Part shown: positions 60,825 through 63,592 of the stretch, piece by piece
Layout: every line of letters starts with the position of its first letter
Position numbering within the stretch: position 1 is the first letter of the stretch
Source: Pilatotrama ljubarskyi
Lineage: Eukaryota > Basidiomycota > Agaricomycetes > Polyporales > Polyporaceae
Assembly: GCA_022385805.1 (NCBI GenBank)
Contig: MU277729.1
Coordinates: 110,327 to 174,326, forward strand
DNA length: 64,000 bases
Direction: 5' to 3'
Translations under genes and position numbers: made by a program
The notes under the pieces: model-generated
What the model was told of the DNA's origin: nothing
The model's input: only the letters and a program-made list of their open reading frames with translations
Database searches by the model: none

Positions 60825-61620
60825 ATGAGTGTCCTCAGGCCCTTCCGCGCTACCGATATGTTCAAGTTCAACCACATGTGCGTGCATGTACACCTATTCC
60901 AACGCCCGAGCGGCCGTCACTGACGCATGGTACCCTGCTCAGAAATCTCGATCTGTGGACGGAGACGGTGTGTCAATGTCCTCATATCAGGTATGGCGGT
61001 GCCTGACAAAAGGGACATGCAGTATGCTATCAACTTCTACCTGGGTTACTTCTCCCGCTGGCCGGACATGTGTGCCGTCCAGGAGACACCACAGGGTCGC
61101 ATCATGGGCTACGGCAAGTCTGGCTCCCCATCTCCCCACCCATCGCCCTCTTATACGTTTGCAATCCCTGGCAGTCATTGGCAAGGCTGAAGGCGCAGGA
61201 CCGGAGCGGCACGGGCACGTCACCGCGCTCAGCGTCGCACCCGAGTACCGCCGACTAGGGCTCGCGCGCAAGTTCATGTCCTGGCTCGAGCAGGTGTCGG
61301 ACGAGAACTACCGCGGCTACTTCGTCGACCTCTACGTGCGCTGCGTCAACACCGACGCGATCAAGATGTACGAGAGCTTCGGGTACAGCGTGTACCGCCG
61401 CGTGAAGGAGTACTACAGCAATCTCGGGCTGGGGCTCAATCCGCGGGACGAGGAAGACGGGTTCGGTGCGTGCTCATGTTATGTGCTCTTCGAGGGAACT
61501 CGCTCACGGAGGATTGCCGGATGTGCAGACATGCGGAAGCCATTATCGCGAGATCCTATGCGACGGTCTGTACGAGCGAACGGCCGAGACATCACCGTCA
61601 GCGCACACGAAGTGCCCTGA
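60825..61620 (+). CDS. NAT3: N-terminal acetyltransferase NatB catalytic subunit (Nat3/Naa20)
   Basis: GNAT enzyme that acetylates the start Met of proteins beginning Met-Asp/Glu/Asn, on ribosomes with its auxiliary subunit. ATG 60825 gives MSVLRPFRATDMFKFNH; splicing adds INLDLWTET, then YAINFYLGYFSRWPDMCAVQ and GRIMGY. The next intron (61114-61174, 61 nt) has a GC donor (GCAAGT) and an AG acceptor; removing it gives MGYVIGKAEG, the conserved beta strand. The acetyl-CoA site follows: VTALSVAPEYRRLGLARKFM (61220-61280), with the R/Q-x-x-G-x-A loop. Then FVDLYVRCVNTDAIKMYESF and GYSVYRRVKEYYS. A last intron joins EDGF to DMRKPLSRDPMRRSVRANGR and the end HEVP, TGA 61618-61620. Full length for the family. 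Confidence 0.93.
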
Positions 61621-62085: not shown

Positions 62086-63592
62086 TTAGTCGTCGTCTTC
62101 GTCGGTGAGCTCTTCGCCGGGTCTGACTCCTAGGTGTTGCTCGAAGCCCGGTTTGCGCGCCCATGATCGGCCGTCGGTATATGGCTCGATGCGGAGCGGT
62201 ACGACGAGGGTGTATGATGGGCTGCGCCCCCTTTTATCAGCGTATGCACAACGGAGGAGTTTTCCGCAAAGCACTCACTATCCGGTCGGACCCACGTTGA
62301 AGAACAGCTCGAGGTTCTTGCGCCACCTGCGAAGACCGTTTGTGAGGGACCTCGCACGACTTCCGACGGCTTCTATACGCACCCTAGGTCATAGCAGTTC
62401 ACGAAGGTCTACGTGGAACAGATTAGCCAACACATCACAACCGATAGAAAGATATGCACAAACCTCTCCTCGCTGCTTCGCCACCTTACGATACTGCTCG
62501 TGATCCTGGGTCTCTACAGACGTCTCACCGGAGGCGACCATGTAGAGGTGCCAGCCGGCCATCGCGGAGACAGCGAGGAAGAGCACGACCGCGAGGATGT
62601 ACTCTAACAAGAATGCCACGGGAGGTACGAGGTAAGGCCATGGCTCCTATCACGGCGGTGAGGATGTGGTAGGGTGACCAGAGGAGTCGGAACGAACGTT
62701 GAACCAGCCCAGTCCTAGGAGGACGTGTCTCCAGCCGAATGCAGCGTAGCAGAAGGACGCGATGACGAGATACACCCTGGACAGGAACGTGAGCCACGGT
62801 TGAGCCGGACAGGTCAATATGTAGACGCACATGAACAACACGAAGTGTCGCTCGTTATACAGGCCCACGCATTGGTTGATCCCTGTGCACGTATATTAGG
62901 ATCGGAGCACTCATACAACCCAACTTCGCGCACTCACACTAGACAGCGATTAGCCTTAACTGTAACCTGAGGAGCGTGCGCGAAGAACTCACAGGACAGT
63001 GGTGGTCATATTTCAACACGCAGCGGTTGCATATCCTGCAGTGATGGGACCTCTCACAGACGCACCTCAGCATGTCCCGCCCCTATTCACGCCAAGCACG
63101 GTCGAACGACGTACCTCTGGTCTCATCTCCCCGCACTTCCTGCACTTCGACGTCGCCGCCCTGGTGACCTGCACGTCTTCGGACCACCGCACGCCCGTCA
63201 GCTGCCGTCCCCTCGCAGAATCCCGCCTTCTTGCCCATAGCACCCCCCTGCCGTGCGCAGGTGGAGGGTCGGGAACGAAGCCTGGGGAGATAGTGCAGAC
63301 GTAGAAGTAATGCGCGAAGAGGTTGAGCGCGATGAGAAGGCACACGGGCGTCGTGAGCCATGGCCACGGTAGGGAGGGCAGGATGACGTCGACTGCCACG
63401 ACCAGTCCCATCAGCTATGTCTTGTCTTCGTATTCCTGAGGAGTACGCACGGAAGCAAAAGAGACCGGTCGAGAGCAAGACGACTGCGAGGGTGACGAAG
63501 ACGGGCCCCGCTGCGCCTGTGAGTCTGTCCCCAGCGCGTTCGAGCCATTTGAAGCAGCGGAAGACTTGTCGGGTGCACCATTGCGGTGCCAT
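62086..63592 (-). CDS. DHHC palmitoyltransferase
   Basis: Multi-pass membrane enzyme that S-acylates cysteines. ATG 63592 gives [20 protein letters not shown] and TM1 ([19 protein letters not shown]); TM2 is [19 protein letters not shown]. The Cys-rich domain is [32 protein letters not shown] across an intron. The expected next residue, Trp, is obtained only if a single-base exon (T at 62938) is used between a 54-nt and a 55-nt intron; reading then continues [57 protein letters not shown] and [20 protein letters not shown]. The C-terminus has [20 protein letters not shown], then [20 protein letters not shown] and the acidic end [13 protein letters not shown] 62086-62088. About nine introns. 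Subfamily not assigned. Confidence 0.9.

Follow-up and report, generated by a model that had tools for sequence, protein, structure and literature searches.

The question raised by this locus is how the DHHC-P-W motif of a predicted palmitoyltransferase gene is assembled from one exon that ends with the codons for DHHCP and a next clear exon that begins with GG, one base short of a tryptophan codon. The initial annotation of the window (by which we mean the whole stretch of 64,000 nucleotides analysed here) proposed that the base is supplied by a one-nucleotide exon, T62938, lying between two back-to-back intron-like units. The coordinates of these units, their lengths of 54 and 55 nt, the GTGAGT donors, the CTAAT sites and the CTAG and ACAG ends were all found to be as claimed, base for base. 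With help from the proteins of relatives we built a gene model on the minus strand (Table 1), in which the CTAAT branch-like site lies 10 nt before the acceptor in the 54-nt intron and 12 nt before it in the 55-nt intron. When T62938 is included, it joins GG to form the TGG codon of DHHC-P-W, as first proposed, and the ten exons read through 334 codons to a stop without interruption; when it is left out, the reading frame is shifted in the active-site domain, also as first proposed, and stops appear. T62938 is one base between the AG acceptor and the GT donor of two complete introns, and it is required for the frame and for the conserved motif. We conclude that it is almost certainly a constitutive 1-nt exon of this gene, situated between two ordinary short introns that would both be removed by intron definition.

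Table 1. Features of the predicted DHHC palmitoyltransferase gene (positions in the window)
Feature	Position	Strand	Description	Basis
Whole gene	62086..63592	minus	10 exons, 9 GT-AG introns of 51-62 nt, 334 aa	
Exon 1	63451..63592	minus	142 nt, ATG at 63592	gene model; alignment with relatives
Exon 2	63115..63392	minus	278 nt	gene model
Exon 3	62993..63052	minus	60 nt, codes for 20 residues, ends ...CAC CAC TGT CCT	gene model
Exon 4 (probable)	62938..62938	minus	1 nt (T), first base of TGG (Trp) in DHHC-P-W	frame, shuffles, excision scan, relatives
Exon 5	62831..62882	minus	52 nt, starts GG-ATC-AAC; 16 residues between split codons (W) and (M)	gene model
Exon 6	62698..62776	minus	79 nt	gene model
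Exon 7	62464..62646	minus	183 nt	gene model
Exon 8	62383..62408	minus	26 nt	gene model
Exon 9	62279..62326	minus	48 nt	gene model
Exon 10	62086..62221	minus	136 nt, stop TAA	gene model
Intron upstream of T62938	62939..62992	minus	54 nt, phase 0, GTGAGT...CTAAT...CTAG	sequence and gene model
Intron downstream of T62938	62883..62937	minus	55 nt, phase 1, GTGAGT...CTAAT...ACAG	sequence and gene model

By its sequence, the predicted product is a DHHC palmitoyltransferase. It contains the Pfam domain PF01529 (113.4 bits against a curated cut-off of 28.7), its nearest solved structures are those of human DHHC20 (2.9e-21), and it is 53-70% identical to 18 aligned relatives. In the alignment with relatives the DHHC motif (156-159) is invariant, as are T246, V248 and E249 of a TSVE motif, which corresponds to the TTxE-like motif of DHHC palmitoyltransferases. 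The database names among the relatives listed (PFA3, vacuole protein, ZDHHC16) do not fix the subfamily. The tryptophan completed by T62938 sits two residues past the Cys of DHHC, beside the catalytic cysteine. It is present at the aligned position in human DHHC20, where we take it, from our own reading of the alignment, to be W158. A review that covers in-silico work with acylated compounds names W158 of human DHHC20 among the residues contacting the acyl chain (PMC11854935). In a scan of the same genome for DHHC loci, four other DHHC motifs (L001, L002, L003 and L008) have the tryptophan within an unbroken exon; L004 overlaps L002, the loci L005, L006 and L009 are the gene locus itself, and in L007 the DHHC motif was not found. 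The frame shift and stops that follow when the T is skipped could also be those of a decaying pseudogene, or of a gene whose truncated protein lacks the tryptophan, but inclusion of the T keeps the frame open throughout the 334 codons, the product retains the above identity to the 18 relatives, and all nine introns are GT-AG, so that we regard such a reading as scarcely credible. Decay and translational frameshifting were moreover rejected because transcript-like relatives, described below, carry the tryptophan.

The initial annotation held that the arrangement is hard to explain as a coincidence, and our counts agree. We generated 20,000 dinucleotide shuffles of the 110-nt stretch with the outer donor and acceptor fixed and scored a pattern in which a single base separates YAG from GTRRGT, lies 45 nt or more from both ends and has a YTRAY site in each half. 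The pattern appeared in 1/20,000 shuffles when any base was allowed and in 0/20,000 with T as the base. Among the 206 GTRNGT...YAG stretches of 100-125 nt on both strands of the 64-kb window, only one has the pattern, and that one is T62938 itself. The two units also have the usual local intron length, as first noted: across the window, units of intron type (GTRNGT, CTRAY, YAG) are most frequent at 45-64 nt (36 vs 6.5 in shuffles), and near 110 nt no excess over shuffles was found. These figures bear on the idea that the assembly has lost one base and that the TGG codon is in reality split by a single ordinary intron of ~110 nt. Loss of one base beside the donor or the acceptor would produce the same picture, but such an intron would be twice as long as the local peak, and the internal CTAG/T/GTGAGT, together with two branch-like sites, would have to be a chance event of the kind seen in 0-1 of 20,000 shuffles. 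A DNA search of the genome's own assembly (33.1 Mb, 173 contigs) matches only one locus, the gene itself, so there is no second allele to compare.

To enumerate simpler solutions, all single stretches of at least 20 nt within 63052-62831 were removed in turn, with DHHCPW[ILV]NQCVG as the target; 0/20,503 of these excisions restore DHHC-P-W, in support of the micro-exon first proposed. The initial annotation had also allowed for a single intron with a different edge. With GT or GC donors from 30 nt upstream and introns of at least 30 nt, we enumerated eight in-frame single-intron alternatives, none of which contains DHHC-P-W. One of them uses a donor shifted by 4 nt (GTGA/GTTCTT, 62988-62883) and yields P-V-R, and another takes a donor that starts after the first base of the Cys codon and yields DHH-W, with Cys-Pro lost; both of these products are errors also found in public gene models of relatives. 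Two double GT/GC...AG solutions give DHHC-P-W, and the T62938 solution alone is fully canonical. The other, in which T62932 is the exon between a TGAG acceptor and a GCGCGA donor, encodes an identical protein but has poor splice sites.

The strongest contrast comes from orthologous proteins. Three protein searches were run and the best 120 of 436, of 262 and of 231 matches were used; one of the queries (222 residues) included residues of the intron 62830-62777, and the others were the corrected protein. The records, which are representatives of 90%-identity clusters, were placed by organism name or by similarity, giving 158 from Agaricomycetes and Dacrymycetes: 134 genome-annotated models, 22 transcript-like records and two uncertain ones on longer contigs (P0068 and P0264). 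We call transcript-like those records with sources jgi, lgn or ena only and no NCBI source, with a contig of 1.1-2.1 kb and an unbroken ORF of 319-383 codons; contig size and source suggest that they derive from transcripts. Among the matches listed, DHHCPW is present in 22/22 transcript-like records, in 2/2 uncertain records and in 4/134 genome models, with the reservation that two of the three queries contained the tryptophan, which may slightly favour W records (the third query lacked Cys-Pro). We infer from these transcript-like records that T62938 is used in the mRNA. The 22/22 count speaks against the in-frame alternatives and not against skipping, because skipped transcripts would be frameshifted and under-represented among full-length ORFs. 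The same comparison argues strongly against the private genome error that the initial annotation had considered, since such an error cannot explain why DHHCPW is missing at this junction from 130/134 genome models of relatives; we therefore give the loss of a base in the assembly very little weight. The four genome models with DHHCPW, from Taiwanofungus (P0009), Tricholomella (P0021), Mycena latifolia (P0054) and Flagelloscypha (P0252), are either correct models or cases of lost introns. A profile search of genome contigs (53 pattern matches) and viral contigs (22) for genomic DNA of relatives yielded no confirmed match.

The shifted-donor intron, whose real product would be DHHC-P-VR-INQCVG, is in frame in the window DNA, and P-V-R is the commonest reading among the genome models listed (60/134). 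Nevertheless, VR occurs in 0/22 transcript-like records and W in all of them, the genome models disagree with one another at the junction, and the tryptophan is kept in outgroups (36/37, see below), in the four paralogous motifs of the same genome and in human DHHC20. The GTTCTT donor also looks poorer to us than GTGAGT, and we judge a true P-V-R product very improbable. DHH-W is found in 3/134 genome models among the matches listed.

The errors themselves have the form that an overlooked base would produce. The motif [ILV]N[QG]C was found in 127/134 models (it is missing in 7); it is preceded by R in 65, by G in 47 and by W in 15, the last group consisting of the four DHHCPW models and eleven in which Cys-Pro is lost or extra residues are present. 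R, G or W corresponds to an NGG codon, which is what one would see if the following exon began with GG and the models had lost only the first base of the codon. In 88/134 models V directly follows DHHCP, and it is followed in turn by R in 65 and by S in 7, a pattern that GTRAGT directly after the Pro codon would produce. The failure is wider in nine of the 130 broken models, of which five have no DHH motif and four no intact [ILV]NxC after DHH. The best reading of these data is that the junction has been systematically misannotated in gene models of Agaricomycetes and Dacrymycetes.

Several models show other readings. Twelve (P0004, P0006, P0016, P0034, P0051, P0073, P0092, P0096, P0125, P0243, P0254 and P0257) read DHHC-P-G-[IV]NQC, and the P-G reading is given by none of the single-intron alternatives in the window DNA. 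Five (P0039, P0044, P0070, P0086 and P0259) read P-V-W, with one extra residue before the tryptophan, which would fit a modelled exon of four bases or a displaced acceptor but could not be derived from the window DNA. The polypore models P0008, P0011, P0023, P0026, P0030, P0031, P0110 and P0119 have a different segment just before ERSHHC. The intron equivalent to 63114-63053, with its acceptor GAG, may thus be misannotated in relatives too.

Among the matches listed, the tryptophan is present in 36/37 outgroup records overall and in 27/28 of those placed by organism name, in a length-selected sample, as that search listed only proteins of at least about 359 residues. It is found in 20/20 listed records of Tremellomycetes, including Phaffia, and in 16/17 of Ustilaginomycotina (nine of the 17 placed by similarity), where the exception, P0165 from Ceraceosorus bombacis, has no DHH motif. 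Gene annotation thus does not fail at DHHC-P-W in general. We calculated a FastTree tree, with the junction removed, from the window protein, 152/158 ingroup records (P0036, P0087, P0121, P0124, P0162 and P0164 were left off) and 14/37 outgroup records. For 21/22 transcript-like records, the smallest clade that includes a genome model contains broken models only; the exception, P0020, pairs with the Taiwanofungus model that has W. P0040 lies beside P0053 of Lactarius (support 99), P0062 beside Piloderma (99) and P0245 beside Ceratobasidium (100), and the nearest models to the P0038 clade are those of Lentinula (100). Because the supports of these transcript-like/model clades range from 7 to 100, the pairings of P0241 and P0249 are distant and the base of the ingroup has a support of 26, the tree supports the nesting and not the deep branching order.

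All three Dacrymycetes models listed (Calocera cornea, Calocera viscosa and Dacryopinax) are broken at the junction, as are the models from Cantharellus, Clavulina and Ceratobasidium; among the named records listed we recognised none from Auriculariales or Sebacinales. One dating places the split between Dacrymycetes and Agaricomycetes at 388 Mya (95% HPD 294-484; Table 4, PMC6478708) and that of Tremellomycetes at 406 Mya. If the broken models of Dacrymycetes and the other lineages reflect the same exon, it would be older than the former split and, provided that the outgroups never had it, younger than the latter. The shared, position-specific failure of the models suggests that Agaricomycetes and Dacrymycetes probably inherited the 1-nt exon from a common ancestor, about 390 Mya. 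A more far-reaching scenario, which we consider rather unlikely, is that the exon arose once between these two splits and was kept for ~390 My in almost every sampled lineage because its inclusion is a control point, the frameshift that follows skipping being a way to inactivate the enzyme.

How a single base could be spliced in can be rationalized from the arrangement of two short introns back to back, both equipped with a donor, a branch-like site and an acceptor. Introns of ~55 nt could be defined by splice sites that pair across them, without recognition of the exon, and the two removals would most likely take place one after the other. Were the upstream intron to leave first, the product ...CCTT/GTGAGT would retain a normal donor; were the downstream one to leave first, ...CTAG/TGG would retain a normal acceptor. 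After both removals the remaining T would complete the TGG codon for the tryptophan of DHHC-P-W. Skipping, by use of the first donor and the last acceptor, would give a frameshifted and presumably unstable mRNA. Two short tandem fungal introns removed consecutively also recall the stwintrons documented in Ascomycota (PMC5639578, PMC9024468). Stwintrons, however, are nested, the internal intron interrupting a splice element of the external one, and they leave no residual exon. At T62938, on the other hand, each unit is a complete intron by itself, and the frame and the tryptophan need exactly one residual base; a complex intron of the stwintron kind, removed in sequence with no exon left, therefore has a negligible likelihood here.

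One-nucleotide nuclear exons are already known. In Arabidopsis APC11, a 1-nt exon between spliceosomal introns is needed for the frame, and Guo and Liu prefer a model of intron definition in which the introns are removed successively (PMC4674806). The 1-nt exons of plant APC11 and VPS55 are deeply conserved in land plants, and VPS55 has GTRAGT donors (PMC8831610). T62938 resembles them in lying between two spliceosomal introns, in being required for the frame and in having been missed by annotation. It differs in belonging to a basidiomycete lineage and to another gene, with the base beside the catalytic cysteine; furthermore, the plant cases were confirmed by RNA-seq and RT-PCR, whereas T62938 is deduced from DNA and from the proteins of relatives. 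A closer parallel is a 1-nt exon in CYP621A of Fusarium, which its authors claim to be the first for a fungal gene (PMC12940212, which also mentions an 8-nt micro-exon in the basidiomycete Phanerochaete). There too, a fungal nuclear gene with short introns had wrong models, and the exon was deduced from a conserved motif (PKG) that was short of one base. In CYP621A, however, the base is the middle of a Gly codon and has RNA-read support (PMC12940212), while T62938 is the first base of a Trp codon; and the CYP621A exon is described for Fusarium species, with 20 orthologues according to the abstract or 24 genes according to the Discussion (PMC12940212), while T62938 is likely to extend across Agaricomycetes and Dacrymycetes. 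One-base exons also lie between mitochondrial introns in Ophiostoma rnl (group II; PMC12308204) and in placozoan cox1 (PMC5436844), but these organelle introns are non-spliceosomal.

Among the literature matches listed, mostly without subscription papers and preprints, there was no 1-nt nuclear exon from Basidiomycota or from a DHHC gene, and in a search for Agaricomycete microexons the only mentions in two basidiomycete papers concern RNA-seq mapping settings. Compared with plant APC11 and VPS55 and with Fusarium CYP621A, the exon is unusual for its likely age and spread and for its position in a catalytic motif. If true, this would be a further fungal nuclear 1-nt exon and the first reported in Basidiomycota among the literature matches listed, with a likely spread that would put it on a par in age with the plant cases. 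It suggests that intron definition can work on short fungal introns separated by practically no exon, and that such an arrangement can be stable across a whole class. The wrong DHHC-P-W in 130/134 listed mushroom and jelly-fungus models matters for structure prediction, for heterologous expression and for the training sets of gene finders.

The neighbouring gene in the window (60829-61617, plus strand) is convergent with the palmitoyltransferase gene and carries a GNAT acetyltransferase domain (PF00583, 1.8e-10). Judging by its motifs, its product presumably resembles Naa20, the catalytic subunit of NatB.
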